From the NCBI GenBank assembly GCA_014654115.1, contig JACWDO010000001.1, positions 1 through 64,000 on the forward strand: a stretch of 64,000 nucleotides of DNA, given 5' to 3'. The translations under genes and the position numbers were made by a program. Below, in pieces: positions 28,689-57,796 of the stretch. Under the pieces are notes generated by a model. It ran no database searches, had not been told where the DNA came from, and was given only the letters and a program-made list of their open reading frames with translations. Positions within the stretch are counted from its first letter, which is position 1. Each line of letters starts with the position of its first letter. The DNA is from Pelagibacterales bacterium SAG-MED17 (GTDB lineage: Bacteria > Pseudomonadota > Alphaproteobacteria > Pelagibacterales > Pelagibacteraceae).

Positions 28689-28718
28689 TTTACAAATGAG
28701 TATGTTTTGTTTTAAGAT
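28689..28718 (+). promoter_or_regulatory. Weak predicted promoter of proX
   Basis: TTTACA (28689-28694) and TAAGAT (28713-28718) are separated by 18 bases in the 91-base gap before the binding-protein gene, which has a good GAGAGGA ribosome site. This is plausible but not strong. Confidence 0.3.
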
Positions 28719-28750
28719 ATATTTTTAATTAATTAAAAGAGAGGAAATAA

Positions 28751-29761: not shown

Positions 29762-29784
29762 AAATTAAACTTTAAAAAATAATT

Positions 29785-29817
29785 AAGGGCTTTGTGAAAA
29801 CAGAGCCCTTTTTTTTT
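29785..29817 (+). terminator. Intrinsic terminator after the ProX-like gene
   Basis: A 10-base-pair stem (29785-29794 with 29801-29810, one G-T pair) with a 6-base loop is followed by nine T. The next gene's ATG begins only two bases after the T-tract. Confidence 0.9.
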
Positions 29818-29819
29818 AC

Positions 29820-31571: not shown

Positions 31572-31687
31572 AGTAAATAATTATATAAAATCAAAAAAAA
31601 TTCAATTCAATTAATAGTTGTATTTAATAAAGTTATTTTATTGTTGATTTGCTTTGATGTATTAAAAGAACTAAACTTTAATAAAAT

Positions 31688-32713: not shown

Positions 32714-32728
32714 TTAGATTACACAGTT

Positions 32729-34365: not shown

Positions 34366-34369
34366 AGTT

Positions 34370-35140: not shown

Positions 35141-35146
35141 AGATAT

Positions 35147-36181: not shown

Positions 36182-36217
36182 ATAACTAAATTACCATTTT
36201 AAGTTTTCTTTAGATAT

Positions 36218-38049: not shown

Positions 38050-38078
38050 AATTTATTTTTCAACTATATTTTAAAATC

Positions 38079-38810: not shown

Positions 38811-39671
38811 ATGAACTTGGACAAATTAAAAGTAAGACGAAGTTTTATTTTTACGCCTGGCCTTCATCCTGAAATGTTTCCTAAAGCAATTGCATCAGGT
38901 GCAGATATGGTCTGTATTGAATTAGAAGATGGGATAGCAATTAATGATAAAGCAGAAGCTAGAAAAAATACTATAGAGGCACTGAAAACTCTCGAAGTAA
39001 AAAATGATGTAGAATTAGTTGTAAGACTTAATAATCAAAGAACAAAGTTTGGTCTTTTAGATTTAGAAGCTTTCATATCTAGCAAAATAAATTTAAAGGC
39101 TATCATGTTACCGAAGGTTAAAACTCCAGATGAAATAACGTTTATAGATGATCTTTTAACAGACTGTAATTTAGATACGGATCTTCACGTAATAATGGAA
39201 ACAAATGAGGCTTTAGAAAATATTTATAATATTGCTCATGCCAGTAAAAGAATAGTTGCTCTATATTTTGGTGGAGTTGATATGGCAGCTGAGCTTAGAG
39301 TAGAAAATAAATGGGAAAATCTTATTCATGCAAGATCTAAATTAGTGCATGCGGGTGCAAGTGTTGGTATAGATGTAATAGATGTACCCTATTTAGATTT
39401 AGAGAATATGGGAGGAATGAAGAAGGAGGCTGAACAGGTGAGAAACTTAGGTTTTACTGGAAAAGGTTCTATTCATCCAAAACAAATTGAAATTTTAAAT
39501 GAAGTATTTACACCACCCCAAGATGAAATTATCAAGGCTAAAAAAATTTTAGAAGAATTTAATAATTCAAATACAGGTCTAGTAGTCATAGACGGTAAAC
39601 TTATAGAAAAGCCTGTCCTTCGAGAAATGAAAAGAAAAATATTGATAGCAGATAAAATAAATAAAGCTTAA
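38811..39671 (+). CDS. HpcH/HpaI aldolase / citrate-lyase-beta-like lyase
   Basis: A 286-residue TIM-barrel lyase of the CitE/malyl-CoA lyase group. Family features are RRSFIFTPG near the N-terminus, IELEDG (about 42-47) for magnesium binding, and FGGVDMAAEL near 160. The reaction is cleavage or condensation of a hydroxyacyl-CoA or hydroxyacid. Its length fits CitE-like (CLYBL) proteins. In this operon it could process acetoacetate- or malate-derived CoA esters from the carnitine route, which is speculation. Confidence 0.8.
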   Translation: MNLDKLKVRRSFIFTPGLHPEMFPKAIASGADMVCIELEDGIAINDKAEARKNTIEALKTLEVKNDVELVVRLNNQRTKFGLLDLEAFISSKINLKAIMLPKVKTPDEITFIDDLLTDCNLDTDLHVIMETNEALENIYNIAHASKRIVALYFGGVDMAAELRVENKWENLIHARSKLVHAGASVGIDVIDVPYLDLENMGGMKKEAEQVRNLGFTGKGSIHPKQIEILNEVFTPPQDEIIKAKKILEEFNNSNTGLVVIDGKLIEKPVLREMKRKILIADKINKA

Positions 39672-39674
39672 ATA

Positions 39675-40142
39675 ATGTCATATCATCTTGCCACTAGAAA
39701 AGTTTTAAAGGAATGGACGGATTACAATGAACATATGAATATGGCATACTATGTTCTTATTTTTGATCAAGCTTGGGAAACAATGCTAAATAAATTTCAT
39801 ATGGGTGGTTCAAACGCACAAATCAATAAAAGAAGTACTATGGTTGTGGATACAAGAACGACCTATGACAATGAAGTGAAAGAAAATGATGAAGTAGATG
39901 TGTATTGTACTTTTTTTGATCATGATAAAAAAAGATTACATTTAAAATGTGAAATGTATGAAAAGAAGTCAAATAAACTTGCTGCAACTATTGAGAGTTT
40001 ATCGCTTTATATTGATCTTGATAAAAGAAAGGTCACAGAATTTGAACAAGATAAAATCCAGATTATGGATGACTTTATAAATAAAAATAAGGTTTCTTTT
40101 AACTCAGAAAATTTAGTGTTTTCTGGTAAGCTAAAAAAATAA
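39675..40142 (+). CDS. cdhB: Betainyl-CoA thioesterase-like 4HBT-family protein
   Basis: A 155-residue hot-dog-fold thioesterase. The N-terminal segment EWTDYNEHMNMAYYVLIFD matches the WxDYNxHMN signature of carnitine-operon thioesterases that release glycine betaine from betainyl-CoA, the step after BKACE cleavage. It lies 3 bases after the CitE-like gene and 3 before a TauD-family gene. Carnitine dehydrogenase and BKACE are encoded on the other strand 1.6 kb to the left. Another acyl-CoA substrate cannot be excluded. Confidence 0.78.
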   Translation: MSYHLATRKVLKEWTDYNEHMNMAYYVLIFDQAWETMLNKFHMGGSNAQINKRSTMVVDTRTTYDNEVKENDEVDVYCTFFDHDKKRLHLKCEMYEKKSNKLAATIESLSLYIDLDKRKVTEFEQDKIQIMDDFINKNKVSFNSENLVFSGKLKK

Positions 40143-42610: not shown

Positions 42611-43561
42611 ATGAATATTGAAAATAATAATCCTAAGGGAATAATATTTGTTCTTACTGGAATGGCATTATTTTCAATTCAAGACTCTCTAATAAAATAT
42701 ATATTTAATGATGTAGCTTTATATGAGCTGTATTTTGGCAGAACTATTATTGCAGCGGCCTTATTGATTATTTTTTTATATTTTAAAAAAGAAAAAATAG
42801 TATTTAAAACAGAATTTCCACTTTTAACTGGATTAAGAGTTACATTATTTTTTTTAGGATTTAGTTTCTTTTATATTTCTTTGACATTTATGACTTTAGC
42901 CATGGCAAATGCGTTATTTTTTTCTAGCCCTTTTTTTATGTCAATTTTTGCAAAATTCTTTTTAAAAGAAGAAATAGGCATTAGAAGATGGTCTGCTATT
43001 TTTGTTGGTTTTATTGGTGTTTATATTGTTTTAAACCCAGATTTCAGTGACTTTAATTATTACAAACTCGCACCAGTCGCTTGTGCATTATGTTATGCCT
43101 CTTCAATGACAATAACTAAATATACTTCTGTAAAAGACAATGTTTATACACAGATGATATGGATGTATGCCACAGCAATATCTTTTAGCTTGGCTTTATA
43201 CTTTTTTACAGGAGACGGTAGAATGAATACTTTCTCAAATCCTACAATGCAATTTATTACTAGGGAGTGGTTTTCAAACCCTTCATATGCATGGCCTTTT
43301 ATAGTTGCAATGGGTTTTGTCGGAGCTGCAGCTTTCTTCTGTGTATTTTCAGCTTATAGTATTGCCTCGCCATCTGTAGTCTCTCTATTTGAATATTCGT
43401 TAATTATATGGGCAATGCTTATTGGTTATTTTTTATTTCAAGATGTTCCAACTTATAGAACTTTTATAGGAGTAGTCTTAATTATTGGTGCTGGTATCTA
43501 TATTTATATAAGAGAAAAAGCTAGAGACCAAATGATTGCAACTGATACACCAAATAGATGA
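42611..43561 (+). CDS. DMT-superfamily (EamA) transporter
   Basis: A 316-residue membrane protein with ten predicted helices and the RRWSAIFVGFIGVYIVL repeat motif, closely resembling the protein at 24491-25423. It follows the GMC oxidoreductase by 45 bases and overlaps the next oxygenase gene by four (ATGA), so it belongs to the same unit. Likely role: import or export of a metabolite of this pathway. Confidence 0.85.
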   Translation: MNIENNNPKGIIFVLTGMALFSIQDSLIKYIFNDVALYELYFGRTIIAAALLIIFLYFKKEKIVFKTEFPLLTGLRVTLFFLGFSFFYISLTFMTLAMANALFFSSPFFMSIFAKFFLKEEIGIRRWSAIFVGFIGVYIVLNPDFSDFNYYKLAPVACALCYASSMTITKYTSVKDNVYTQMIWMYATAISFSLALYFFTGDGRMNTFSNPTMQFITREWFSNPSYAWPFIVAMGFVGAAAFFCVFSAYSIASPSVVSLFEYSLIIWAMLIGYFLFQDVPTYRTFIGVVLIIGAGIYIYIREKARDQMIATDTPNR

Positions 43562-44526
43562 ATAAAAATTATATTCCAACAATTGATGTTTCTAAAATAT
43601 TAAATAATAAGTTTAATTCAATAGCCTCTAAAAATATAATTAATAAAATTAATAAAGCCTGTGTTGAGGTGGGTTTTTTTCAAATTATTGGTCATGGAAT
43701 AAAACTCAGTAATATTAATAAAATTTGTACAATTGGTGAAAAATTTTTTGAAACAAGTTTTCAAAATAAATTAAAGTTAGCACCCAGAAAGTGGAATAAA
43801 AAAAACAAAAATTTTTATAGAGGATATTTTCCAAATGATGTAAATGGCAAAGAAGGCTTAGATTTGGGTGATCTAAGAGTAACTAAAAATTATTCTGAAA
43901 AATTAAACAATCAATATATCGAATACTTGAATATTAAAAAATCGTTAAGTAAAAAATCAACAGAAGAATTATCAAAATATTTTGACAATATATTTAATTT
44001 AAGTGAAACTATTTTTAAAGCTATTATAAAATTATATAATAAAGATACAGATATTTCTAAAAAAGCATTTTCTAGATTAAAAACTCTAAGTACATTGAGA
44101 TTTAACTATTATCCCAACCAAACCAAACCTGTTGAAATTTCTGAACAAGATGGTGTTGCGCTTGGTTGTGAAACTCACGTAGATAGTGGTATTTTTACTA
44201 TTCTTTATCAAAATAAAAAAGGTGGACTGCAAGTTCAAAATCGAAAATCAAAAAAGTGGTATGATGTGCCTTTTAATAAAAAAGCACTAGTAGTAAATAC
44301 GGGAAGAGCGCTTGAATATTTGAGTAAAGGTAAATTTAAGGCAACAAATCATAGAGTTTTATGGAATAAGCAAAAAAGGCTATCTGTTCCTTTCTTTTTT
44401 GAACCCTCTTATGACTTTAAGATGAATCATGGCTTCTTAAATCAACCAAAAACAAATAGTTCAGGGCAAAGTTATGAAAAATTTCTAAATAAATCTCTTA
44501 AAAAATTCATTGAATATCAAAGGTAA
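43558..44526 (+). CDS. Isopenicillin-N-synthase-like Fe(II)/2-oxoglutarate oxygenase
   Basis: A 322-residue, lysine- and asparagine-rich oxygenase of the DIOX/IPNS family. Iron ligands are His207 and Asp209 (THVDSG) and His265 (NHRVL); Arg near 275 with following Ser (RLSVP) is the 2-oxoglutarate site. Such bacterial proteins hydroxylate or desaturate small molecules, and ethylene-forming enzyme is one relative. It is the last gene of the unit that begins at 38079 and is coupled to the DMT gene. Confidence 0.83.
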   Translation: MNKNYIPTIDVSKILNNKFNSIASKNIINKINKACVEVGFFQIIGHGIKLSNINKICTIGEKFFETSFQNKLKLAPRKWNKKNKNFYRGYFPNDVNGKEGLDLGDLRVTKNYSEKLNNQYIEYLNIKKSLSKKSTEELSKYFDNIFNLSETIFKAIIKLYNKDTDISKKAFSRLKTLSTLRFNYYPNQTKPVEISEQDGVALGCETHVDSGIFTILYQNKKGGLQVQNRKSKKWYDVPFNKKALVVNTGRALEYLSKGKFKATNHRVLWNKQKRLSVPFFFEPSYDFKMNHGFLNQPKTNSSGQSYEKFLNKSLKKFIEYQR

Positions 44527-44628: not shown

Positions 44629-45798
44629 ATGAATTTTGGATATTTTTGTAACACTACAAACTGGACGCATAAACCTTATCACAAACTTTTAGATGAAACT
44701 CGAGAAATCACTGAGTACTGTGATCAGGGTGATTGGAATTCTATATGGTATACAGAACACCATTTTAATCATGAAGGGATGGAGTCATTAACAAATCCTT
44801 TGATGATGGGTGTTGATGCAGCGGCAAGAACAAAAAATATTAGAATAGGTCAAGCTTGTAACGTAATTACTTTCCATAATCCAATTAGAATGGCTGAAGA
44901 TATAGCTTTATTAGATCAGCTTTCAAAAGGAAGAGTAGAGATAGGAATTGGTAGAGGAATATATGGACGAGAAGCAATCAATCTAAATAAAGAAGCAGAC
45001 ATGAAAGACCAAGCTAAAAATTTTAGATTGTTTGAAGAAACTTTAACTATTTTAAAAAAAGCCTGGTCAGAAAAATTTTTTAATCATAAGGGTGAATTTT
45101 ATACTTATCCTGCTCCAGATTATGTTTGGCAGCATGATATGAGTCCGCCTAATAAAGATTTAGTTAACCTTAATACTGATGTGATGGAAAATATTAGCGT
45201 TGTGCCAAAACCTTACCAAGAGCCGTTTCCTCCAATACATCAAGTCGTTGATGGAATAAGATCAATTGAATGGGCAGCCGCACAGGGATTAAATGTTATT
45301 ATGTGGATACCCACGGTCAAAGCATTAAAAGTTAAATTTGAAGCTTTTAAGAACGCTAAATCAGTTGCAGAAAAAAGAAATGTGCCAATGGGTGAAGGAA
45401 TTTCATTAGTAAGAGACATGTTTGTTGCTGATACAATGGAAGAAGCTAGAGAAAAAGCTGGCGAGCATATGGTGAACTATATGAGATGGGTTTGTCATTG
45501 GAGAGGGCTAGGAAATCATATGGATCCAGGTGAAGAATTGCCAGTTACAAAAGGTAAATTAGATTTATTGAGTTATGATTTTTTACATAAACGTAACATG
45601 CTCTTTGGAACACCAGAATATGTTATTGATAAAATTCATGAACTAAAATCTGAACTAAACTTACAAAATCTTCAGGTTTGGTCTAATTTTCCAGGTGTAA
45701 AACATGAGGATTGTATGAAAAGTATTAAGTTATTCACTGAAAAGGTCATGCCTCATTTTAAAGATGATTTAGATACTGAAGTTAAAAAAGTTTCGTGA
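44629..45798 (+). CDS. LLM-class flavin-dependent monooxygenase (luciferase-like)
   Basis: A 389-residue luciferase-like enzyme. EHHF near residue 45, NPIRMAEDIALLDQLSKGRVEIGIGRG (about 84-110) and the flavin-binding barrel are clear. The group includes monooxygenases that cleave C-S, C-N or C-C bonds with FMNH2. It has the strongest ribosome site seen here and heads a six-gene operon; the next gene overlaps by four bases (GTGA). No flavin reductase is in the window, so reduced flavin must come from elsewhere. Confidence 0.86.
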   Translation: MNFGYFCNTTNWTHKPYHKLLDETREITEYCDQGDWNSIWYTEHHFNHEGMESLTNPLMMGVDAAARTKNIRIGQACNVITFHNPIRMAEDIALLDQLSKGRVEIGIGRGIYGREAINLNKEADMKDQAKNFRLFEETLTILKKAWSEKFFNHKGEFYTYPAPDYVWQHDMSPPNKDLVNLNTDVMENISVVPKPYQEPFPPIHQVVDGIRSIEWAAAQGLNVIMWIPTVKALKVKFEAFKNAKSVAEKRNVPMGEGISLVRDMFVADTMEEAREKAGEHMVNYMRWVCHWRGLGNHMDPGEELPVTKGKLDLLSYDFLHKRNMLFGTPEYVIDKIHELKSELNLQNLQVWSNFPGVKHEDCMKSIKLFTEKVMPHFKDDLDTEVKKVS

Positions 45799-47495
45799 AT
45801 AAGGCTAAAGGTCTCTTGACGGGAGGTCAAGCTGCAGTCAAATCATTAAAAAGAGAGAAAGTTAAACACGTATTTGGTTTAATTGGTTCAGCGACCATGG
45901 AAATGTTCGATGCTCTTTATCATGAAAAAAAAATAAAGTTTATTGGTGTAAGAGATGAGAGAACAGGAACACACATGGCAGACGGTTATGCCAGAGCATC
46001 TAATCAACCTGGAGTTATTATTGCCGGTCAAAATGGTCCAGGAGCAACAAATCTAGTAACAGGGATAGCGCAAGCAAAAGCCGCATTTTCTCCAGTAGTT
46101 TCAATAGCAGGATTATATTCTACCAAAGATAAAATGGAGGATGCGTTTCAAGGTCTAGACCAACAGTCATTATTTGAGCCTATTACTAAAAAAACTATTA
46201 CAGTTAAAAATGTAAAAAATATTCCACAATCATTTTCAAATGCATTTAATGTTGCTATGTCACCAAGAAGAGGACCTGTTTGCATAAATGTTCCAAGAAA
46301 TATACTCTCAGATACCTCTAAATTTAATATTAATGAAAATAAAAAATCTTTTAAGAGTGAAAGTAATTTAAAAAGTAAACAAAACTTAATTGAAAAAACC
46401 TCTAAACTTATTTTAAACTCAAAAAGAATAGTGATTATTGCTGGAGGTGGAATTAAATATAATTCTAAATTTAAAGAAGTTACTAATCTTGCTGAATATT
46501 TAAATATTCCTATTGTAACAGCAGCTGGACATGGTGATGCAATCCCATTTAGTCATAAATTATATGCTGGGCAAATGGGACCTAGAGGAAATATTGTTGC
46601 AACAAACTTAGTAAAAGAAGCAGATCTTATTGTTGCCCTAGGTACAAGACTGGGTTTTAATTCTACTTTTTATTCGTATGATAATATAAATAAACATGCG
46701 AAAATTATTCAAGTAGAACTAGAAAAAAAAATGTTAGGTAAATATTTTCCTATAAATATTGGAATACATGGAGATGCCGCAACAGTTACAAATCAAATTT
46801 TAAATAATTTAAAAAAAAATAAAAAAATATCAAATTTTAAGGATTGGACGAATAAATTTTTAAAAGAAAGATCGAAATTTCTTTTTAATAGAGACAATTT
46901 AAAATCTAAAAATTTTCCAATTCAACCAAATGGTCTATTTAGAGAACTAAGAAAAGTACTACCAAAGAATACAGCAATAACACTTGATGCTGGTACTCTT
47001 TGCCTTCAGGCAACTGATGCCTTAGAATATTACAATCCTCCTGCTCTTTTCACGCCTCTTGATTTTGGGCTGGTAGGTTTCTCTTTTGCTTGTGGTTTGG
47101 GGATTAAGGTTGCAAAACCTAATAAAACTGTCGTTAGTTTGATGGGTGATGGCGGATTTGGAATGACTATTTCTGAATTAAGTACAGCTGTAGAACATGG
47201 AATTAACACAATTACAATAGTAATGAATAATAAAAGTTGGGGAGCAGAAAAAGCTTATCAAAAAGATTTTTATGGTGAAAGATATTTAGGAGCTGATATT
47301 CAAAGCCCTCCTTTTGATGAAGTTGCTAAACTATATGGTGCTAAAGGAATTAAAGTTAAAAAATTATCAGAAGTTAATGAAGCAGTAAAAAGTGCATTAA
47401 AAGTAAATAAACCAGTTGTTATAGATGTTGATGTAGATCCAAAAGCGTTATACAGTTTTAGAAGAGATAGCTTTACACATAGAATTAAAAAATGA
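45795..47495 (+). CDS. ThDP-dependent enzyme resembling sulfoacetaldehyde acetyltransferase (Xsc)
   Basis: A 566-residue ThDP enzyme with activating Glu55 (RDERTGTHMADGYA) and GDG at 451-453. The C-terminal run, with NNKSWGAEKAYQKDFYGER and the ending FRRDSF, resembles sulfoacetaldehyde acetyltransferase rather than acetolactate synthase. Xsc converts sulfoacetaldehyde and phosphate to acetyl phosphate and sulfite. The protein is a little shorter than Xsc, so a different aldehyde or oxo substrate is possible. It starts on GTG and overlaps both neighbours by four bases. Confidence 0.75.
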   Translation: MNKAKGLLTGGQAAVKSLKREKVKHVFGLIGSATMEMFDALYHEKKIKFIGVRDERTGTHMADGYARASNQPGVIIAGQNGPGATNLVTGIAQAKAAFSPVVSIAGLYSTKDKMEDAFQGLDQQSLFEPITKKTITVKNVKNIPQSFSNAFNVAMSPRRGPVCINVPRNILSDTSKFNINENKKSFKSESNLKSKQNLIEKTSKLILNSKRIVIIAGGGIKYNSKFKEVTNLAEYLNIPIVTAAGHGDAIPFSHKLYAGQMGPRGNIVATNLVKEADLIVALGTRLGFNSTFYSYDNINKHAKIIQVELEKKMLGKYFPINIGIHGDAATVTNQILNNLKKNKKISNFKDWTNKFLKERSKFLFNRDNLKSKNFPIQPNGLFRELRKVLPKNTAITLDAGTLCLQATDALEYYNPPALFTPLDFGLVGFSFACGLGIKVAKPNKTVVSLMGDGGFGMTISELSTAVEHGINTITIVMNNKSWGAEKAYQKDFYGERYLGADIQSPPFDEVAKLYGAKGIKVKKLSEVNEAVKSALKVNKPVVIDVDVDPKALYSFRRDSFTHRIKK

Positions 47496-48079
47496 AATTA
47501 GAATTACGTAAGTTTACTAAATTTGTAGATAAGACTTTTATTGAGGGAGGAAAGGAGGCCAAAGAACCTGTTTTAATGGTTTCTGTTGCTGCAGTTTTTA
47601 AAAATCCTTGGGATGGAAAAGGTTTTGTAGAAGACTTAAAACCCATTATTTTAGATCTAGCTCCTAAACTTGGAAATTTACTGGTTCCTGAACTAATAAA
47701 AGAAATAGGTTCCCCGGATAAAATATTAGCATATGGAAAAGCGGGTGTAGTTGGGCTAAACGGAGAAATAGAGCATGCATCAGCATTTATTCATACATTA
47801 AGATTTGGTAATAAATTCAGAGATGCTGTTGGAGGAACTTCTTATTTAAGTTTTACAAATACAAGAGGCACCGCTGGATCAAAAATATCCATTCCAATGA
47901 TGCATAAAACAGACTCTGGATTAAGACCTTATTATTTAACACATGAGTTTACTATTCACGATGCACCATTTGATAATGAAATCGTTATCGCAATTGGAGG
48001 AGCTTCAACTGGAAGAGCCCACGCGAGAACAGGTGACAGGTACCAAGACATGAAAGAGATGGGCATTGAACCAAAGTAA
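47492..48079 (+). CDS. AA_synth (DUF1185) family protein
   Basis: A 195-residue protein of Pfam AA_synth/DUF1185, known from a few structures but without a firmly assigned reaction. Landmarks are LAYGKAGVVGLNGEIEHASA near residues 90-108 and GRAHARTGDRY near the C-terminus, which carry conserved His and Arg. It lies inside a six-gene operon between a ThDP enzyme and a hydrolase, overlapping the former by four bases (ATGA). The tight pairing suggests a catalytic step of the same pathway, possibly amide or ring chemistry. Confidence 0.75.
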   Translation: MKLELRKFTKFVDKTFIEGGKEAKEPVLMVSVAAVFKNPWDGKGFVEDLKPIILDLAPKLGNLLVPELIKEIGSPDKILAYGKAGVVGLNGEIEHASAFIHTLRFGNKFRDAVGGTSYLSFTNTRGTAGSKISIPMMHKTDSGLRPYYLTHEFTIHDAPFDNEIVIAIGGASTGRAHARTGDRYQDMKEMGIEPK

Positions 48080-48081
48080 TA

Positions 48082-48855
48082 ATGATCAATGCAACAGATT
48101 CTAATAATACTTTTTACAAATTAAATAAAAAAAAAGGAATCCCAATAATTTTTATCCATGGTGTAGGACTTGATAATAGTATTTGGGACCCTCAGATTGA
48201 TGCATTTGAAAATACTGTTTTAATCTATGATATTCTTGGCCATGGCAGAACCCCTTTAAATAAAGATAATGTCAGTTTTGATGATTTTTCTGATCAGTTA
48301 TTAAGTTTGATTAACGAATTAAAAATAGAAAAAATGCATTTAGTTGGATTTTCTATTGGATCTCTAATTGCTAGAAATTTTGCAACAAGATTTAATAAAA
48401 GACTTCAGTCACTTACATTGCTATGCTCAATATTTAATAGATCAAAAGAGCAGCAAAAAATAGTAAATGATAGGTTTGAACAGACAAAAAAAGAGAATAT
48501 TCTGCCAAAAACATCCTTAAGAAGATGGTTCACTTATGAATATTTAGATAAATATCCAAAAATATCGGAGAAAATTGGATCAATCCTTGAAAAAAATAAT
48601 ATGGCCAACTTTATTAAAATATATTCTTTATTTGTTAATCATAAAGATGATGAAAGATTTGAGGATATAAAGGCAAAAACCCTAGTAATGACAGGTGAAG
48701 GAGATGTCGGGTCAACTCCAGAAATGTCAAATAATTTGAGTAAAAAAATTAAAAACTCTATTGTAAAAATAATACCAGTTGGAAAACATCTATGTAGTAT
48801 TGAATGTTCAGATGATGTAAATAGTAAGCTAAAAGATCACATTCTAAATGCCTGA
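48082..48855 (+). CDS. Alpha/beta-fold hydrolase
   Basis: A 257-residue hydrolase with oxyanion motif HGVGLDNS, nucleophile Ser in GFSIGS (near residue 93), and a late GKHLCSIE carrying the likely catalytic His. It resembles enol-lactonase and RutD-type enzymes. It sits 2 bases after the DUF1185 gene and overlaps the aldehyde dehydrogenase by 8. By position it would hydrolyse an ester, lactone or carbamate made earlier in the pathway. Confidence 0.83.
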   Translation: MINATDSNNTFYKLNKKKGIPIIFIHGVGLDNSIWDPQIDAFENTVLIYDILGHGRTPLNKDNVSFDDFSDQLLSLINELKIEKMHLVGFSIGSLIARNFATRFNKRLQSLTLLCSIFNRSKEQQKIVNDRFEQTKKENILPKTSLRRWFTYEYLDKYPKISEKIGSILEKNNMANFIKIYSLFVNHKDDERFEDIKAKTLVMTGEGDVGSTPEMSNNLSKKIKNSIVKIIPVGKHLCSIECSDDVNSKLKDHILNA

Positions 48856-50329
48856 ATTAAAAAAATATAAAATGTTTATTGGTGGTGAGTGGTTAGACTC
48901 TGATACAAAAAAAACATTTGAAACACTAAACCCAGAAAATAATAAACCATGGGCAATTGTACCAGAGGCAAGTGCTAATGATGTCGACAAAGCTGTTAAA
49001 TCTGCACAAAAAGCTTTTGAGGGAGGTTGGCCAAAACTTTTACCACGAGAAAGAGGGAAATTTTTAAGAGCGATTGGAAATAAATTAAGAGAAAATGCAG
49101 AATTACTTGGAAGAATTGAAACTATAGATACTGGAAAAATATTTAGAGAAACAAATCAACAAGCAAATTATATTGCAGAGTATTATGATTATTATGCTGG
49201 ATTAGCTGATAAAGTTGAAGGTACTGTACTTCCAATAGATAAACCAAATATACAAGCGATTACCTCTAGAATACCAATTGGTGTTATTGCAGCAATAGTT
49301 CCTTGGAACTCGCAAATGTTTTTAACTGCTACCAAATTAGCTCCAGCTTTAGCCATGGGGAATACTGTTGTAATTAAATCATCAGAACTTGCCCCAGCAG
49401 TAATGTTTGAGTTTGCAAAATTAATTGAAGAAACTGGAATTCCTAAAGGTGTTGTAAATGTCATAACTGGGTTTGGTGATCCATGTGGCAAAGCGTTAAC
49501 TACACATAATTTAGTGGAAAAAGTTGCTTTCACAGGTGGCCCTGAAACTGCGAGACATATCATAAGGAATTCAGCAGAAAATTTATCAGAGGTTAGCTTA
49601 GAGTTAGGTGGAAAAAGCCCAGTAGCAGTTTTTAATGATGCTCATCAAGAAAATGCAATCAATGGAATTACAGCAGGTATCTTTGGTGCAAGTGGACAAA
49701 GCTGTATAGCAGGATCAAGACTATATTTACAAAAAGGAATTTATGATGAATTTATTGATAAACTTACAAAAAGAGCTGAAAGAATAAAAATTGGAGCCCC
49801 AATGGACAAAGATACAGAAATGGGACCTCTAAGTAATTTTAAACAACTAGAAGTGATAGAAAAAAATATAAAAAAGACTATTGAGCAAGGTGGAAAAGTA
49901 AGATGTGGTGGGAAAAGACATCCATTTTCTAATGAAGGCTATTATTTTCCTCCTACTATAATTGAATGTGATAACCATAACCTTCCTACAGCAGAAAATG
50001 AGCTTTTTGGACCAGTTTTATCAGTTATGAAATTTGATTCTGAAAAAGAGGTAATAGAGAAAATGAATGACAATCAATATGGTCTATCCTCAGGAGTTTA
50101 CACTAGTGATTTTTCAAGAGGTCTTAGAGTTTCTAACGCAGTGAGAGCAGGAATAACATTTGTAAATACTTATCGACTAATTTCCCCTTCAGCACCTTTT
50201 GGTGGAATTAAAGATAGTGGATATGGAAAGGAAGCAGGAATGGACTCAATTAAAGATTATACTAGAGTTAAAACAACTTGGTATTATACATCTGATGAAC
50301 CAACTTTAGATCCTTTCTCTATAAGATAA
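48848..50329 (+). CDS. NAD(P)-dependent aldehyde dehydrogenase
   Basis: A 493-residue ALDH with general base Glu in SLELGGKSP (near 252) and nucleophile Cys286 (GQSCIAGSR). The CIAGSRL context is common in betaine-aldehyde, gamma-glutamyl-gamma-aminobutyraldehyde and similar catabolic dehydrogenases. It is the fifth gene of the LLM operon. Its substrate should be the aldehyde released by the hydrolase or ThDP step. A separate role in betaine formation with the GMC enzyme at 40985 is also possible. Confidence 0.87.
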   Translation: MPELKKYKMFIGGEWLDSDTKKTFETLNPENNKPWAIVPEASANDVDKAVKSAQKAFEGGWPKLLPRERGKFLRAIGNKLRENAELLGRIETIDTGKIFRETNQQANYIAEYYDYYAGLADKVEGTVLPIDKPNIQAITSRIPIGVIAAIVPWNSQMFLTATKLAPALAMGNTVVIKSSELAPAVMFEFAKLIEETGIPKGVVNVITGFGDPCGKALTTHNLVEKVAFTGGPETARHIIRNSAENLSEVSLELGGKSPVAVFNDAHQENAINGITAGIFGASGQSCIAGSRLYLQKGIYDEFIDKLTKRAERIKIGAPMDKDTEMGPLSNFKQLEVIEKNIKKTIEQGGKVRCGGKRHPFSNEGYYFPPTIIECDNHNLPTAENELFGPVLSVMKFDSEKEVIEKMNDNQYGLSSGVYTSDFSRGLRVSNAVRAGITFVNTYRLISPSAPFGGIKDSGYGKEAGMDSIKDYTRVKTTWYYTSDEPTLDPFSIR

Positions 50330-50332
50330 TTT

Positions 50333-51190
50333 TTGTCTGCAAAACACACTTTACTTATTTTATTCGTAGTATTTTTGTTAGGAAGTGCTTACCCAACTGG
50401 TAAACTGGGGCTGAATGATACAATACCACCAATACTATTTGGGGCTTTAAGAATGTCAGTTGTATTTATTTGTTTAATTCCATTTTTCAAATTTCAAACA
50501 GTTGAAAAAAAATACATTATACCTTTGATTGGATTTTCAGTATGTTTTGGAGTTGCTGTAAATATGTTTTTATATTTATCTATAAATGCCTCTAGTATTC
50601 TTGCCCCGATTACTATAGGTGCGCAGCTCTCAATTCCTTTTGGAATAATACTAAGTTCAGTATTTTTAAATGAAAAGATAAGTTATAAAAAATGGTTATT
50701 AATTGCTACTTCATTTTTTGGAATTGTTTTACTTGCATTTGACCCAAAAGTAGTTGAAGAAATATTAGGCTCGCTATTAATTTGTGGTATGGCTTTTTTT
50801 TACGGAATGTCGCAAGTTTTTTCGAGATACTTAAAAGATTTAGATATTAAATTTACAAATACAATAATGAGTTTAACAGGATTTTTAATTTTAATAATTC
50901 TGTCTTCAATATTTGAAAAAAATACTTTTGAAACTATTAGAAATATTAGTTTAGGAAGTTGGTTTACAGTTTTGTATGCTGGAGCAATAATTTCTTTGCT
51001 GGGACATTTAATGATGTTTTACCTTTATAAATTTTATCCAGTTGATATGGTTCTGCCCTTCTATGCTTTATTTCCTGTTTTTGGTTTAATACTCACTTAT
51101 TTCATCTTTGGAGAAATTCCCTCTTTAATAACAGTTACCGGGGGTATAATTGTAATTACATCTGTGTTTTTTGCTCAAAAAATTAGATAA
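50333..51190 (+). CDS. DMT-superfamily (EamA) transporter
   Basis: A 285-residue membrane protein with ten predicted helices. It starts on TTG three bases after the aldehyde dehydrogenase and closes the LLM operon, so it likely exports a by-product or imports the substrate of that pathway. Start with a hydrophobic helix (LLILFVVFLLGSAYPTGKLG) is usual for EamA proteins. Confidence 0.83.
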   Translation: MSAKHTLLILFVVFLLGSAYPTGKLGLNDTIPPILFGALRMSVVFICLIPFFKFQTVEKKYIIPLIGFSVCFGVAVNMFLYLSINASSILAPITIGAQLSIPFGIILSSVFLNEKISYKKWLLIATSFFGIVLLAFDPKVVEEILGSLLICGMAFFYGMSQVFSRYLKDLDIKFTNTIMSLTGFLILIILSSIFEKNTFETIRNISLGSWFTVLYAGAIISLLGHLMMFYLYKFYPVDMVLPFYALFPVFGLILTYFIFGEIPSLITVTGGIIVITSVFFAQKIR

Positions 51191-51263: not shown

Positions 51264-52454
51264 ATGAAAAAACTAGTATTAGCGATGTTTGTATTCGTTT
51301 CTTGCTTTGTATCAAAAGCTTATTCGGACGGACATGGCATAAAAATGGGAATTATTTTAGGATTTACAGGACCTATTGAATCCCTAACTCCAGCAATGGC
51401 TGCATCAGCTGAACTTGCGTTTAAAGAAGCTTCAGATTCTGGTTCACTTCTTGGAGGAAAGAAAATTTCTGTTGAAAGAGCAGACTCAACGTGTGTTGAC
51501 TCAGCTGCTGCTACTGCAGCTGCTGAAGGTTTGATCTCTAACGGTGTAGTAGCGATTATGGGAGCTGATTGTTCAGGTGTAACTGGAGCAATAGCAACTA
51601 ATGTTGCTGTACCAAACGGCGTTGTTATGATTTCACCATCAGCTACATCTCCAGGATTAACTGATCTAAATGATAATGGATATTTTTTTAGAACAGCACC
51701 TTCAGATGCAAGAGGTGGTCAAATATTAGCAGATATAACTAAAGACAGAAAAGTAAAAAGTATTGCAGTAACACATACAAATAATGATTATGGTAAGGGT
51801 TTGGCTGATGTTTACGTTGCAGCAGTAAAAGCTCATGGAATAAATGTAACAGTTGTTACAGCTCATGAAGAAGGAAAAGGTGATTACGGTGCTGAAGTTG
51901 CTACATTAGCAGCAGCTGGTGGTGATGCTTTAGCAGTTTTAGGTTACTTAGACCAAGCGGGTGGAAGTATCATTGATGGTTCATTAGACTCAGGTGCATT
52001 TGATGTATTTGTGCTTTCTGATGGAATGATAGGTGACTCTTTAACTGATAGATTTGGAAATGATCTAAATAAATCATTTGGTTCATTACCTGGATCAATG
52101 GGTAAAGGAGCTTCAATATTTAAGGGCGTAGCAGGTGGCGCAGGTATTGATTCATCTGGACCTTATACTTCAGAATCTTACGATGCAGCAGCATTGATAG
52201 TTTTAGCAATGCAAGCTGGTGGTAAAGCTGATAGAGCTACTGTTCAAGCAAATGTAATGTCAGTTGCAAATGCTCCAGGAGAAAAAATATATCCAGGAGA
52301 ATTAAAAAAAGCATTAGATTTACTTGCTAGTGGTAAAGCAGTTAACTACGAAGGTGCATCTAGTGTTGAATTAACTGATGTTGGAGAAGCATCAGGTGCC
52401 TTTATTGAAAAAGAAATTAAAGGTGGAAAATTCAAAGACAAAAAACAAAGATAA
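51264..52454 (+). CDS. livJ: Branched-chain-amino-acid-type periplasmic binding protein (LivJ-like)
   Basis: A 396-residue exported family-1 binding protein. The signal peptide spans about residues 1-22. The mature protein opens with GIILGFTGPIESLTP, and DSTCVDSAAATAAAEGL with GADCSGVTGAIA form the usual ligand cleft. The family binds leucine-type amino acids, amides or ureas. It stands alone on the plus strand, closed by a strong terminator, and faces the minus-strand LivFGHM genes at 53118-57002, which have no binding protein of their own and are its likely partners. Confidence 0.9.
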   Translation: MKKLVLAMFVFVSCFVSKAYSDGHGIKMGIILGFTGPIESLTPAMAASAELAFKEASDSGSLLGGKKISVERADSTCVDSAAATAAAEGLISNGVVAIMGADCSGVTGAIATNVAVPNGVVMISPSATSPGLTDLNDNGYFFRTAPSDARGGQILADITKDRKVKSIAVTHTNNDYGKGLADVYVAAVKAHGINVTVVTAHEEGKGDYGAEVATLAAAGGDALAVLGYLDQAGGSIIDGSLDSGAFDVFVLSDGMIGDSLTDRFGNDLNKSFGSLPGSMGKGASIFKGVAGGAGIDSSGPYTSESYDAAALIVLAMQAGGKADRATVQANVMSVANAPGEKIYPGELKKALDLLASGKAVNYEGASSVELTDVGEASGAFIEKEIKGGKFKDKKQR

Positions 52455-53117: not shown

Positions 53118-54488
53118 TTATTGTTTAATAATCTTTTCTGGAATTATTCCCTGAGGTCTAAATCTCATTATAAAAAGAAGGCCTATCCCAACTAATAAGA
53201 ATCTGAAATATGGTGCACTATTTATTAAATGAATTTTTATCTCATTTGTTTCTGGAAGATGTGCTGTAAATAGATTTATAAAAAATAATGCAATTGGTGC
53301 AGCTTCTACCCATAAAAACCAAACTACAAAACCTCCAAGAATTGCTCCAAAATTATTACCTGTTCCACCCACGATTACCATCACCCATATAACAAATGTA
53401 TATCTCATCGGTCTATAGCTTCCGGGTGTAAATAATCCATCATTTGTAACCATCATTGCTCCTGCTATACCAACAATAGCTGAGCCTAAAATAAATATAA
53501 ACAAATGTTGTTTAACAACATTTTTACCCATTGCACTTGCCGCTTCCTCATTGTCTCTGATTGCTCTCATCATTCTTCCCCAAGGTGAATATAGGGCTTT
53601 TTGTGTAACTAATAATAAAATAACAACTACAACTAAAAATAATCCTGCAAAACAAAGTTTTACATAGATTGAAGATGAATCTATAACTAACTGGTTTAAT
53701 AGATCTTGTCTTTCAGTAAGTGAATTAGTTAATGAAAGTTTTGAGGAGTGAAATTTTTCGACTAGATTTATAAACCATGGAGATGTCTGTAAATCTATTT
53801 CATATGGAGCGGGCCGCTTTAACCCTATTACATTTTTTACTCCCCTAGCTAACCAATCCTCATGTTTTATAATTGAAACAACAATTTCTGCAATTAACAA
53901 AGTTGCTATTGCGAGATAATCAGCTCTTAAACCTAATGCTACTTTTCCAACTATGAATGCTAAACCTGCTGCAAAAAAACCACCCACAATCCAAGAAAAT
54001 AAAATCGGCATGCCTAACCCACCTAAAAAACCAGTTTTGGCTGGCTCTACGGCCTCAATTAATTCTATTGCTGGTCCTGAAATAATTTTGACAAGAAAAA
54101 GTCCAACTATAATAATTGCAGCAATGATATAGTTTCTTTTTTTTGATTTTTCGGTGTTTTTAAGCACATATCTTATAAAAAAAATCATTAGAGCTATTAG
54201 TATAAGACTCATAATCATATTTATTCCCCCAACACTCCATGCTTCAGAAACTGGAGCAACAGAAACAAGTACCACTGCTAAACCACCCAAAGCTGTATAA
54301 CCCATTATTCCAAAATTTATTAAGCCTGCATATCCCCATTGAATATTTGCTCCCATTGTCATTACAGCTGAAATCATACAATAATTGAAAATAGTTAAAG
54401 CAATTGACCAAGACTGAAAAATACCTACTAAAATTATTAGCCCTAACATTATTGAGTAAGCAATAATTATATTTAAGTAATTTCTCAT
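53118..54488 (-). CDS. livM: Branched-chain-type ABC permease LivM (first set)
   Basis: A 456-residue permease, longer than the usual 320-420. Extra length lies in a hydrophobic N-terminal part and in a soluble loop around residues 225-275. The LRADYLAIATLLIAEIV segment and the late EEAASAMGKNV coupling loop are standard. It overlaps livH by four bases (ATGA). With LivH, LivF and LivG at 54485-57002 it forms one complete importer core. Confidence 0.88.
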   Translation of the reverse strand: MRNYLNIIIAYSIMLGLIILVGIFQSWSIALTIFNYCMISAVMTMGANIQWGYAGLINFGIMGYTALGGLAVVLVSVAPVSEAWSVGGINMIMSLILIALMIFFIRYVLKNTEKSKKRNYIIAAIIIVGLFLVKIISGPAIELIEAVEPAKTGFLGGLGMPILFSWIVGGFFAAGLAFIVGKVALGLRADYLAIATLLIAEIVVSIIKHEDWLARGVKNVIGLKRPAPYEIDLQTSPWFINLVEKFHSSKLSLTNSLTERQDLLNQLVIDSSSIYVKLCFAGLFLVVVVILLLVTQKALYSPWGRMMRAIRDNEEAASAMGKNVVKQHLFIFILGSAIVGIAGAMMVTNDGLFTPGSYRPMRYTFVIWVMVIVGGTGNNFGAILGGFVVWFLWVEAAPIALFFINLFTAHLPETNEIKIHLINSAPYFRFLLVGIGLLFIMRFRPQGIIPEKIIKQ

Positions 54489-55495
54489 ATTTTCTTTCCC
54501 TCAAATATCCCTGATGGTCGAAATACCAAAACGATAACCAAAATTGAGAATGATATTGCAAACTTGTAATCTGTAGATAAAAGCTGCATCAAAGAATTTG
54601 GTTCCAGTTGTTCAGGTAAAATGTAAATAAAAAATTTTTTATAGGCATATGTGAGAAATATTTCTGCGAATGCAATTAAATATCCACCAAGAAATGCTCC
54701 ATATGGATTACCGATACCCCCAGCTATAGCTGCAGCAAATATAGGAAGCATATTGTTAAAATATACAAAAGGTCTATAACTTTTGTCTAAACCGTATAAT
54801 ACACCCCCAATAGTTGCTAGTATTCCCGCTATAATCCAAGTGATAAGAACTACTTTCTTTGGATCGATTCCAGAGAGTAATGCCAAATCTTCATTATCGG
54901 AATAAGCTCTCATACTTGTTCCTGTTTTTGTTTTGTTTAAAAACCAAAATAAGATTGCAACTAAAACAATAGTTACTAAAATAGTAATAATTTGTGTAGA
55001 CTTTATTGTTAATCCTTCAGCGAGTCCCGTCATATCTTTAAATTCCGAAGCTTTTATAATAAATTTTTCTCCATCCATAAATCTTCTATCTGTTGGGCCA
55101 ATGATAATTCTAATAATTGCTTGAGTAACAAACATTACACCAATACTAACCATTGCTAATTGCACAGGAGGACTTTTTTTAATTCTATAATAACTAAAAA
55201 CTGTTTTATCTATTAGGAGCATATAAAATATCATCATCGAAACAGCAAACGGTATAGTAAGCAAAGCTGTAGGCAAAAAACCAAAGCTTATTCCTTTTGA
55301 TTGCAGGTAATAAGTAAATAACACAGCAAACATTGTACCAAAGGACATCATGTCTCCAGTTGCAAAATTAGCAAATCTTAAAATTCCATAAATTAGAGTT
55401 ACAAAAATTGCCCCAAGAGCTAATTGTGACCCATATGTTAATGCAGGAAATATAGTGTAATTTAGTAATAAAATAATTGCGTTGATAAAATCCAT
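54485..55495 (-). CDS. livH: Branched-chain-type ABC permease LivH (first set)
   Basis: A 336-residue permease of the LivH class with about eight helices. GILRFANFATGDMMSFG near residue 37 and the EDLALLSGIDPKKV coupling loop near 200 are the family marks. It lies 2 bases after livF on the same strand and overlaps livM by four. Confidence 0.9.
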   Translation of the reverse strand: MDFINAIILLLNYTIFPALTYGSQLALGAIFVTLIYGILRFANFATGDMMSFGTMFAVLFTYYLQSKGISFGFLPTALLTIPFAVSMMIFYMLLIDKTVFSYYRIKKSPPVQLAMVSIGVMFVTQAIIRIIIGPTDRRFMDGEKFIIKASEFKDMTGLAEGLTIKSTQIITILVTIVLVAILFWFLNKTKTGTSMRAYSDNEDLALLSGIDPKKVVLITWIIAGILATIGGVLYGLDKSYRPFVYFNNMLPIFAAAIAGGIGNPYGAFLGGYLIAFAEIFLTYAYKKFFIYILPEQLEPNSLMQLLSTDYKFAISFSILVIVLVFRPSGIFEGKKI

Positions 55496-55497
55496 AA

Positions 55498-56205
55498 TTA
55501 AGCCCCTAAAAATGACCTTCTTACCTCTGGGTCATTTAATAATTCCTTTCCAGAACCTTCAAATTTATTTTCTCCGGTGACTAAAACATAACCACGATCT
55601 GATATACTAAGTGCTTGTTTTGCATTTTGCTCAACCATTATAATTGCAACTCCAGTTTTTTTAACTTGAACAATATGTTCAAATAACTCATCCATCACAA
55701 TAGGAGAAACGCCTGCAGTTGGTTCGTCTAACATTAAAACTGATGGCTGTATCATCAAAGCTCTTCCTAAAGCTACTTGTTGTCTTTGACCACCTGATAA
55801 TTGTCCAACTATTTGATCTCTCTTATTTGCTAGAATTGGAAATAATTCATAGATCTGATTAATAACTATATCAATATTATCTTTTCTAAGAAATCCTCCT
55901 ATTTCTAAGTTCTCTCTAACTGTCAATTCTGAAAAAACATTTTTTGTTTGTGGCACAAAAGAAACTCCCCTTTGAACTCTTGCTTGTGGAGAAAGATTAG
56001 ATATGTCTTGATCTTCTATAACCACACTTCCAGATTTTAATTTTAATAAACCCAGCATTGCTTTCATTGCGGTGGATTTTCCCGCACCATTTGGACCTAG
56101 GATTGCAACAATCTCTCCTTTTTCAACATTTATCGAACAAGAATTAATAATATCAGGACCATCTCCATAACCACCTGTCATATTATTTCCTTCAAAAAAT
56201 GCCAT
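55498..56205 (-). CDS. livF: Branched-chain-type ABC ATPase LivF (first set)
   Basis: A 235-residue ATPase with Walker A GPNGAGKS at 37-44, LSGGQRQQ, Walker B MLDEPTAGVSP, and the C-terminal IIMVEQNAKQAL that marks LivF. It overlaps livG by one base. It is paralogous to the LivF at 60246-61031. Confidence 0.92.
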   Translation of the reverse strand: MAFFEGNNMTGGYGDGPDIINSCSINVEKGEIVAILGPNGAGKSTAMKAMLGLLKLKSGSVVIEDQDISNLSPQARVQRGVSFVPQTKNVFSELTVRENLEIGGFLRKDNIDIVINQIYELFPILANKRDQIVGQLSGGQRQQVALGRALMIQPSVLMLDEPTAGVSPIVMDELFEHIVQVKKTGVAIIMVEQNAKQALSISDRGYVLVTGENKFEGSGKELLNDPEVRRSFLGA

Positions 56206-57002
56206 TAACTATCTTCCCCACTAATTTTTTTTCCCCTACCTAGATAACTTTCTATAACTTGCTCATTTTTTTTTACTTCATCAGAAGTTCCTTCAAATAA
56301 AACAGAACCTTCAGACATTACAATTACCGGATCACACATTCTGCTAATAAATTCCATATCATGCTCAATCATACAAAAAGTATAATTCTTCTCTTTATTA
56401 AGTCTTAAAATTGCAGTACCAAGATCTTTTAATAATGTTCTATTAACACCCGCTCCTACTTCATCTAATAAAACTAATTTTGCGTCCACCATCATAGTTC
56501 TTCCCAATTCTAGCAATTTTTTTTGACCTCCCGATAGATTTCCTGCTCTTTCGTTAGCTAAATGTTTTAAATTTAAGAATTCTGCCACTTCATAGGCTTT
56601 AAGTCTGATTTGCTCTTCTTCTTCTTTTATAAGTTTAGGCTTTATAAATGCATTTAATAAGGTTTCACCAGTCTGGTTTCCTGGGACCATCATTAAATTT
56701 TCTAAAACAGTAAGATTAGAAAATTCATGTGCAATTTGAAAAGTTCTTAGAAGACCTTTTGAGAACAATTCGTATGAGGGTACATCGGTTATATTTTCAC
56801 TATTGAAGTAAACATTTCCTTTAGAAGATTTTAGATTTCCTGCAATAAGGTTAAAAAGAGTAGTTTTTCCCGAGCCATTAGGACCAATAATTCCAGTTAT
56901 CGTTCCTCTTTTAATAGTTAGTGAACAATTAGAAACTGCAGCAAGACCTCCAAAATATTTTGAAATATTTTCTATTTTCAGAATATTTAAATCTGATGGC
57001 AT
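56205..57002 (-). CDS. livG: Branched-chain-type ABC ATPase LivG (first set)
   Basis: A 265-residue ATPase with Walker A GPNGSGKT at 40-47, LSGGQKKL, and the switch His in CMIEHDMEF, as in LivG. The Walker B Asp-Glu is in VLLDEVGAGVN, slightly off the usual DEPxAG. It lies 6 bases after the ProC-like gene and overlaps livF, so the reductase and transporter are cotranscribed. Confidence 0.92.
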   Translation of the reverse strand: MPSDLNILKIENISKYFGGLAAVSNCSLTIKRGTITGIIGPNGSGKTTLFNLIAGNLKSSKGNVYFNSENITDVPSYELFSKGLLRTFQIAHEFSNLTVLENLMMVPGNQTGETLLNAFIKPKLIKEEEEQIRLKAYEVAEFLNLKHLANERAGNLSGGQKKLLELGRTMMVDAKLVLLDEVGAGVNRTLLKDLGTAILRLNKEKNYTFCMIEHDMEFISRMCDPVIVMSEGSVLFEGTSDEVKKNEQVIESYLGRGKKISGEDS

Positions 57003-57779: not shown

Positions 57780-57796
57780 AGGGGTAATTACTATAC

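Follow-up and report, generated by a model that had tools for sequence, protein, structure and literature searches.

An LLM Monooxygenase–ThDP Operon of SAR11 Bacteria and Its Possible Role in the Oxidative Breakdown of an N-Heterocyclic Compound

The analyzed stretch of SAR11 DNA (64,000 nucleotides; hereafter, the window) contained a compact operon that may well serve to open an N-heterocyclic compound oxidatively and to dismantle it along a trigonelline-like route with an added ThDP step, the compound being probably N-methylated (betaine type); judged from gene content, conservation and relationships, the chances of this reading, with homarine as the leading candidate substrate, were considered about even. 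The first-pass annotation had placed a six-gene operon at 44629-51190, and all six ORFs were found there, tightly packed on the plus strand (Table 1). The assignments to the LLM, ThDP, DUF1185, alpha/beta hydrolase, ALDH and EamA families were upheld by Pfam domains, while the four gene overlaps counted earlier were corrected to three overlaps and two short gaps (junctions of −4, −4, +2, −8 and +3 bases).

Table 1. Position and proposed identity of the operon genes and their neighbors in the window.
Position	Strand	Feature	Basis
43558..44526	+	2OG-Fe(II) oxygenase, directly upstream; frequent but not constant neighbor, membership uncertain	Pfam
44629..45798	+	LLM-class flavin monooxygenase, own subfamily; proposed ring-opening oxygenase	PF00296; no NCBIfam cut-off reached
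45795..47495	+	ThDP enzyme, own clade on the Xsc side; GTG start	domains, scores, tree, ortholog operons
47492..48079	+	DUF1185/AA_synth, TgnF-like subfamily	PF06684; 54.5% to tgn-cluster DUF1185
48082..48855	+	alpha/beta hydrolase, perhaps TgnD-like; proposed N-formyl/enamide hydrolase	Pfam; 30.8% over 250 aa to tgn-cluster hydrolase (common fold)
48848..50329	+	aldehyde dehydrogenase, closer to TgnC than to tgn-cluster SSADH	Pfam; 50.5% vs 31.7% (only these two tgn ALDHs compared)
50333..51190	+	EamA/DMT transporter, optional member	Pfam; whole in 33/62 complete SAR11 operons
51264..52454	+	periplasmic binding protein of a Liv-type ABC system; possible uptake system	Pfam; whole in 56/62 loci
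53118-57002	minus	Liv-type ABC permeases and ATPases	same Liv-type system as the binding protein at 51264..52454

Since gene spacing in a streamlined genome is weak evidence, it is the conservation of the arrangement that counts. Among the 80 SAR11 loci closest to the window LLM (the best 80 of at least 378), the ThDP ORF directly followed the LLM in 79; in the remaining locus, L143, which is probably chimeric where its contig ends, the first ~43 ThDP residues were followed by hydrolase and DUF1185 fragments in inverted orientation. A DUF1185 ORF was found in 75 of these 80 loci (inverted in L156), and the five loci in which it was missing comprised four that ended inside or just after the ThDP gene and L143 itself. 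Of the loci in which the five core genes were all whole (62), 61 had an LLM–ThDP overlap of 4 bases, and DUF1185 had the highest mean identity of the operon proteins across the SAR11 copies. Six more distant copies from the SAR11 order, with LLM identities of 76-78% (five copies) and 58% (one copy), had no ThDP gene, and the complete genome G300 carried the operon without such a gene; thus, the ThDP gene is optional, which fits a late step replaceable by other enzymes. A 2OG-Fe(II) oxygenase lay no more than 500 bases upstream of the LLM in 40 of the 76 loci with more than 1.2 kb before that gene, and none was found beside the four ThDP-less SAR11 copies with upstream sequence (L064, L065, L067 and L068). 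It should be noted that a basic ORF-calling script, with labels taken from blastp, was used for the neighboring genes, so that some ORFs were misplaced or missed.

With the SsuD and SfnG models, the window LLM reached 20.9 and 46.8 bits (cut-offs 518.2 and 382.95, respectively), and its identity as a sulfonate or sulfone monooxygenase was rejected on these values, which are far below both cut-offs. With 25% identity to TgnB, it is not an ortholog of that protein either. Fourteen other matches at 31-52% were obtained in 289 genomes of the class, and only one of them, L108 from outside SAR11, stood in such an operon (flavin reductase–LLM–DUF1185–hydrolase–ALDH); L086 had DUF1185, hydrolase and ALDH genes on the opposite strand, and no DUF1185 was found near the other matches. 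No relative of the LLM was found in the viral contigs searched, and a plasmid search returned three Peribacillus records (33% at E 1e-30). A PF01613 flavin reductase was found neither in the window genome (61% complete) nor in eight other genomes of the genus, including the complete, operon-bearing G300.

The ThDP protein had been described as ending like Xsc, and it does fall on the Xsc side and not among the acetolactate synthases, yet in a clade of its own. It shares the WGAEK and QNGPG stretches with Xsc, the first of these standing where the acetolactate synthase rows have GMVRQWQ; its scores were 395.5 bits against the Xsc model TIGR03457 (cut-off 676.4) and 398.2 bits against the acetolactate synthase model TIGR00118 (cut-off 538.35), whereas true Xsc genes, found in 11 of 15 genomes, reached 878-971 bits. 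In the phylogeny against Xsc suggested earlier, which was midpoint-rooted and for which the tool warned of long branches, the protein fell into a separate clade of 25 rows (support 100/98), and six Xsc rows grouped with L224 apart from it (100/100). A true Xsc gene was present elsewhere in the genome in six of the eight genomes of the genus searched; the window's own assembly (61% complete) yielded none. Consequently, identity as true Xsc was rejected on the score, the separate clade and the presence of true Xsc as a separate gene in relatives, and identity as acetolactate synthase on the score, the lack of GMVRQWQ and the tree placement.

These data bear on an organosulfonate route, in which the LLM would desulfonate or oxidize a sulfonate and the Xsc-like ThDP enzyme would release sulfite and acetyl phosphate. 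The position of the ThDP protein on the Xsc side and its WGAEK motif speak for such a route, as does a ThDP protein of Ruegeria, related more distantly, whose neighbors are an aminotransferase and two FAD oxidoreductases; however, the LLM and ThDP scores, the separate Xsc gene of the relatives and partner genes like those of the trigonelline route make it very improbable. The earlier view of an oxidative route for an organosulfur or nitrogen compound held as regards an oxidative catabolic operon, and its organosulfur part was not supported in view of the SsuD, SfnG and Xsc scores and the separate Xsc gene.

The closest annotated system found was the trigonelline (tgn) cluster. Trigonelline is a plant compound, and Perchat et al. 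(2018) reportedly described the cluster for its degradation in Acinetobacter. A tgn cluster with RefSeq names has the core DUF1185–hydrolase–tgnA–tgnB–tgnC, which is the same core as in the window; DUF1185, an alpha/beta hydrolase, an LLM oxygenase and an ALDH, in the window perhaps of the TgnC type, occur together in both, whereas the window has a distant LLM, an extra ThDP gene and neither a TgnA-type reductase nor a second ALDH beside the operon. In a quick tree without bootstrap (SH-aLRT 88), the window ALDH grouped with the ALDHs of ThDP operons apart from TgnC.

The DUF1185 gene-neighbor survey, from which the window's own hit, one hit below the cut-off (G056) and one fragment (G079) were left out, revealed two subfamilies, and the expected link to LLM, ALDH and hydrolase genes held in one of them (8 of 15 loci) and not in the other (0 of 67). 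A general DUF1185–LLM link was rejected, as no same-strand LLM lay within 6 kb of any of the 67 distant members; Liv-type ATPase genes were near 20 of these 67. The window protein is of the TgnF type according to its identity to the tgn-cluster member, its place in the LLM-linked subfamily and its HTLxFGN stretch, and its AlphaFold model (pLDDT 49) was too poor for use. Contrary to the first-pass annotation, which saw no firm biochemical role for the family, a lead exists in print: TgnF, a DUF1185 member, reportedly has a stimulating effect on TgnE during the breakdown of trigonelline (PMC7913881).

A further alternative is a Baeyer–Villiger ketone route, in which the LLM would be a type II oxygenase, the hydrolase would open the ester or lactone, and the ALDH would oxidize the freed aldehyde. 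In its favor, diketocamphane monooxygenase is among the solved LLM relatives (4uwm, E 5.8e-12), and the hydrolase is similar to enol-lactonases (118.7 bits for PcaD, cut-off 255.85); however, such a route leaves unexplained both the TgnF-like DUF1185 and the ThDP operons whose LLM is TgnB-like, and it is regarded as unlikely.

The latter operons were found outside SAR11, where the ThDP ortholog mostly ended a LysR|[flavin reductase]-ALDH-TgnB-like LLM-[DUF1185]-hydrolase-ThDP operon (16 of 21 loci examined; in the order of G213, 10 of the 22 ThDP-bearing genomes were covered). DUF1185 was present in 10 of the 16 loci with ALDH, LLM and hydrolase beside the ThDP gene, and an eleventh occurred in L334, which has no LLM. 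A divergent LysR gene was found in 15 and a flavin reductase in 5 of the 21 loci; partner genes were absent nearby in three, and in a fourth they were limited to the hydrolase and part of a DUF1185 gene. Betaine-type ABC transporter genes lay near the operon in three loci (above the ProV cut-off in L319 and L335; in L331 a betaine-type permease below its cut-off). The operons of SAR116 and of an alphaproteobacterial family share with the window an orthologous ThDP enzyme (57-63%), the ALDH (50-55%, three compared) and the function set, but their LLM is TgnB-like (38.6 and 39.7% to TgnB, two compared; 23-25% to the window LLM, three compared), and they have LysR and, in the five loci given above, a flavin reductase. 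Thus, the set of LLM, ALDH, hydrolase, ThDP and often DUF1185 recurs with two dissimilar LLM types, and both operon types are contained in the single ThDP clade (100/98). No name for the LysR-linked operons was found in the literature searched.

In the proposed trigonelline-like route, the LLM, with FMNH2 from some reductase, would open the ring to an aldehyde-bearing N-formyl enamine, the aldehyde of which would be oxidized by the TgnC-like ALDH. The hydrolase would then cleave the product into formate, an amine and a carbonyl acid, with DUF1185/TgnF assisting, and the carbonyl fragment left by hydrolysis is proposed as the substrate that the ThDP enzyme would decarboxylate or cleave. Homarine is N-methylpicolinate, and enzymes of this ThDP superfamily usually act on 2-oxo acids; homarine leads among the candidates because its C2 carboxylate would leave a 2-oxo acid. 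The same pathway kind acting on another nitrogen heterocycle (trigonelline, pyridinium, pyrrole or imidazole) draws on the same gene evidence, and the two LLM types may act on different substrates. No decisive point stands against this possibility, which is nevertheless considered rather improbable, homarine being favored only on marine occurrence and the expected 2-oxo acid. Matches to an N-methylglutamate dehydrogenase query occurred in 57 of the 61 genomes, with identities of about 33-39%, which cannot separate this enzyme from sarcosine oxidase. The proposed route draws support from the tgn-like core, the operons around the ThDP orthologs, the single ThDP clade, L108 and the betaine-type transporter genes. 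Against it stand the low identity of the window LLM to TgnB, the rarity of such operons among the 14 other LLM matches, the grouping of the ALDH apart from TgnC, the missing PF01613 flavin reductase in the genomes searched and the ThDP orthologs with few or no partner genes. The ThDP step is not needed by homarine chemistry as drawn, which is a further point against this reading.

The literature search found nothing on SAR11 with LLM, ThDP and ALDH genes. Ferrer-Gonzalez et al. (Nat Microbiol, 2026) reportedly described a homarine catabolic operon (homABCDER) that occurs in Rhodobacterales, SAR11 and SAR116; this distribution fits the one seen here, and that study may already cover the present operon. 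Marine particles, Synechococcus and diatoms have been reported to contain homarine (PMC8269262), at concentrations that a later correction describes as overstated (PMC10134881). On steric grounds, Heal et al. considered it unlikely that TgnAB acts on homarine (PMC8269262), which also speaks against the proposed reading.

It is conceivable, if only tentatively, that SAR11 mineralizes a common marine N-heterocycle by means of an LLM from outside the TgnB subfamily and a ThDP enzyme of a new type, an Xsc relative expelling or decarboxylating a nitrogen-linked fragment, and that the ThDP gene joined the pathway more than once. The LLM-linked DUF1185 subfamily is now separated from the rest of the family, and an uncharacterized ThDP enzyme family is marked out, to which a cultured SAR116 strain offers experimental access. 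If the operon serves a ring-type nitrogen compound, it would link SAR11 to compounds made by phytoplankton, such as homarine (PMC8269262).

The six-gene operon of the first-pass annotation was confirmed as an observation: all six genes lie on the plus strand, belong to the families listed (see table), and are separated, in order, by −4, −4, +2, −8 and +3 bases. The host assembly is 905 kb in size and 61% complete. In a scan of named genomes, the window LLM was matched at 100% in the Pelagibacteraceae genome AG-447-E20. Among the best 80 of at least 378 LLM loci, names were of Pelagibacter type in 79 and of a Gammaproteobacteria MAG in one (L137). The window accordingly belongs to SAR11. In the same best 80, a ThDP ORF directly followed the LLM in 79 loci and a DUF1185 ORF was found in 75, inverted in L156. 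The exception for ThDP was L143, in which the LLM is followed by a short fragment of ThDP, with 43 residues aligned, and then by inverted pieces, an arrangement that is probably chimeric; four of the five loci without a DUF1185 ORF stop inside or just past ThDP, and the fifth is L143. The inverted pieces at the SAR11 contig ends of L143 and L156 are probably amplification chimeras. An ORF of about 209 aa lay between ThDP and DUF1185 in 11 of these best 80 loci, and the only one tested (L058) was a class I methyltransferase. Mean identity to the window in 62 complete copies was 93.2% for DUF1185, the most conserved of the five compared proteins, 88.7% for LLM, 88.2% for ALDH, 79.4% for ThDP and 65.7% for the hydrolase.

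Coordinates of the operon and of other features in the window and in loci of other genomes (L-numbers)
Sequence	Positions	Strand	Feature
Window	44629-51190	+	LLM monooxygenase, three-domain ThDP enzyme, DUF1185, alpha/beta hydrolase, aldehyde dehydrogenase (ALDH), EamA transporter
Window	25416-40142		Betaine/carnitine neighbourhood
Window	34370-36181	−	Second LLM gene and alpha/beta hydrolase, adjoining carnitine-type genes
Window	57009-58717	−	GlaH/CsiD and pyrroline-5-carboxylate reductase genes, beside Liv-type genes
L058	10334-10963		ORF between ThDP and DUF1185, class I methyltransferase
L065	11415-13331		Ectoine-type genes (EutA-like, DoeA-like) and an ABC system, in divergent orientation to the LLM operon
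L143	10185-10660		Inverted operon pieces
L156	3292-3876		Inverted operon pieces
L225 (Ruegeria sp. THAF33 plasmid)	353-9662		Run with a more distant ThDP relative
L334	5625-11666		LysR|flavin reductase-ALDH-DUF1185-hydrolase-ThDP

Since these 80 loci are the nearest relatives, a broader sample was also taken. The LLM was present in 19 of 61 genomes (that of the window and 60 relatives), with ThDP in 12, without it in six, and cut by a contig end in one. In the ThDP-less copies, DUF1185, hydrolase and ALDH, in this order, directly follow the LLM. Quick trees of LLM and ALDH separated the ThDP-bearing from the ThDP-less copies of the window's family, one ThDP-less LLM (L064) being left unplaced. 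G300, a complete genome of the window's genus, carries the operon, and its only matches to the Xsc (sulfoacetaldehyde acetyltransferase) model are true Xsc and an acetolactate-synthase-like protein. A 2OG-Fe oxygenase, DMT transporters and a Liv-type system were common, not constant, neighbours.

An organosulfur or nitrogen compound had been proposed as the substrate on account of the LLM class, which includes sulfonate monooxygenases, and of the Xsc-like end of the ThDP enzyme. The organosulfur reading was not supported, since the ThDP protein scored 395.5 bits against the Xsc cut-off of 676.4 and true Xsc is a separate gene in relatives (above cut-off in 11 of 15 genomes searched, including 6 of the 8 from its genus, but not detected in the 61% complete window assembly). 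The acetolactate synthase model gave 398.2 bits (cut-off 538.35). In the alignment, the ThDP glutamate and the GDG...NN stretches are conserved in the window protein, which has WGAEK and QNGPG in common with Xsc at positions where acetolactate synthases show GMVRQWQ and TSGPG; in the FQE stretch, glutamate is replaced by glycine in the three window-family rows shown and retained in both rows from the second family of the SAR11 order. In a midpoint-rooted tree of 44 rows, for which the tool warned that long branches meet, the window protein fell within a clade of 25 rows (branch support 100/98), to which six more distant relatives attach (97/98); Xsc adjoins this group, and a split supported at 100/98 sets all of these apart from the acetolactate synthases. 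The likeness to Xsc thus held as to the side of the tree and the shared motifs, but the protein belongs to a clade of its own. For the second SAR11-order family (f159), the ThDP rows branched outside the group of SAR11 and SAR116 type at a weak fork (90/88, starred by the tool); the LLMs of the two families are alike (56–58%). This pattern would fit if LLM operons had gained ThDP two or more times, or if the LLM had been exchanged.

Orthologs of the ThDP protein (57–63%) were found in G213, probably a SAR116 genome, in its order (22 of 136 genomes), in G176 and G279, and in the family of G641, probably Rhodobacteraceae, where 12 of 198 genomes matched and nine of these reached at least 58%. 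Of the 21 ortholog loci read (L324–L326, at 41–42% and of another clade, being excluded), 16 combine ALDH, LLM and hydrolase with a ThDP gene that closes the set, and DUF1185 was also present in 10 of those 16; flavin reductase was found in five of the 21 and a divergent LysR gene in 15. No LLM was detected in the L334 run by tblastn with two LLM queries, L333 retained the hydrolase and a DUF1185 piece, and L220, L327 and L328 had none of the partner genes. The LLMs of these operons had 38.6 and 39.7% identity to TgnB, the LLM of the trigonelline degradation (tgn) cluster (two compared), and 23–25% to the window LLM (three compared). Two unlike LLMs therefore accompany one ThDP-ALDH-hydrolase(-DUF1185) set, and no other finding speaks more strongly for a joint function of these genes. 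The L225 run, with a ThDP relative at 39.5%, also holds a trimethylamine methyltransferase family protein, a class III aminotransferase and two FAD oxidoreductases, and looks like quaternary amine demethylation and transamination ahead of an Xsc-like step.

Among 289 genomes of the class, 57 had DUF1185 (PF06684). The 82 gene copies read split into 15 with at least 53% identity to the window protein and 67 with 37% or less; all three partner genes (LLM, ALDH and hydrolase) were on the same strand and no more than 6 kb away in 8 of the 15 and in none of the 67, so that the expected repeated linkage held for the close group and failed for the distant one. Neighbouring DUF1185 gene pairs occur in the distant subfamily (L088, L226–L231, L233 and L238–L241 among others). 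The solved members BB2672 and SPO0826 (PMC2954203) are without the HTLxFGN stretch of the close group. The window LLM was matched at E 1e-40 or better in 12 of 289 genomes of the class (15 matches including its own). Only L108 of the 14 others lies in a flavin reductase-LLM-DUF1185-hydrolase-ALDH run; in L086 DUF1185, hydrolase and ALDH lie on the strand opposite to the LLM, and the remaining matches had no DUF1185 close by. Thus, the operon link is a property of closer LLMs. Neither the 61% complete window genome nor eight other genomes of its genus, of which five have the operon, yielded a PF01613 flavin reductase.

According to the RefSeq annotation of an Acinetobacter plasmid, the tgn cluster has the order DUF1185-hydrolase-tgnA-tgnB-tgnC, with succinate-semialdehyde dehydrogenase (SSADH), sarcosine-oxidase-like genes, purU and folD close by. 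The window ALDH had 50.5% identity to TgnC and 31.7% to SSADH; identity to the tgn counterpart was 54.5% for DUF1185, 30.8% for the hydrolase and 25% for the LLM (27% for the second window LLM). In quick trees, the window ALDH clustered with those of the ThDP operons (SH-aLRT 88), whereas DUF1185 of the ThDP operons clustered with tgn and that of the window did not (99); this disagreement indicates mixed histories of the operon parts. According to PMC7913881, TgnF, homologous to the PF06684 protein HcdD of that paper, stimulates TgnE-dependent oxidation of succinate semialdehyde, and no such stimulation could be seen for HcdD. The hope of the first-pass annotation that the operon could assign a function to DUF1185 therefore stands for the TgnF-like group, for which a lead already exists, and not for the rest of the family.

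The betaine/carnitine neighbourhood of the window holds a ProV-type ABC ATPase (362.6 bits, cut-off 326.6) and gamma-butyrobetaine dioxygenase-like, L-carnitine dehydrogenase-like and beta-keto-acid cleavage-like proteins, these three scoring below their cut-offs. Glutarate dioxygenase GlaH/CsiD scored 449.9 bits (cut-off 333) and pyrroline-5-carboxylate reductase 330.1 (cut-off 254). The ectoine-type genes of L065, the one locus tested, encode proteins that are both below the NCBIfam cut-offs; similar genes occur in L067 and L144.

By analogy with trigonelline, the LLM would open a ring, the ALDH would oxidise the product, and hydrolysis of an N-formyl enamine would follow, with the ThDP step last. 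The TgnB/C/D reactions behind this scheme are those reportedly described by Perchat et al. 2018. Homarine is the favoured substrate because its carboxylate at C2 would yield a 2-oxo acid, which would be 2-oxoglutarate if the C5–C6 bond were cut; the main weakness of this reading, however, is that the ThDP step is superfluous in that drawing. That the step is optional, as in G300, agrees with a late step replaceable by other enzymes. Against homarine, Heal et al. (PMC8269262) judged it an improbable substrate of TgnAB and saw poorer growth of Ruegeria pomeroyi on it than on trigonelline, and their homarine concentrations were later corrected as overstated (PMC10134881). A role of N-methylglutamate dehydrogenase in the breakdown of homarine is described in a 2026 report that PMC13390433 cites. 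The operon is best read as a variant of the ring-opening operons of trigonelline type, to which a ThDP enzyme related to Xsc and so far uncharacterised is added. The 2026 report reportedly describes a homarine operon, homABCDER, in Rhodobacterales, SAR11 and SAR116, which fits the distribution seen here, and the operon of the window is possibly this homarine operon already in print.
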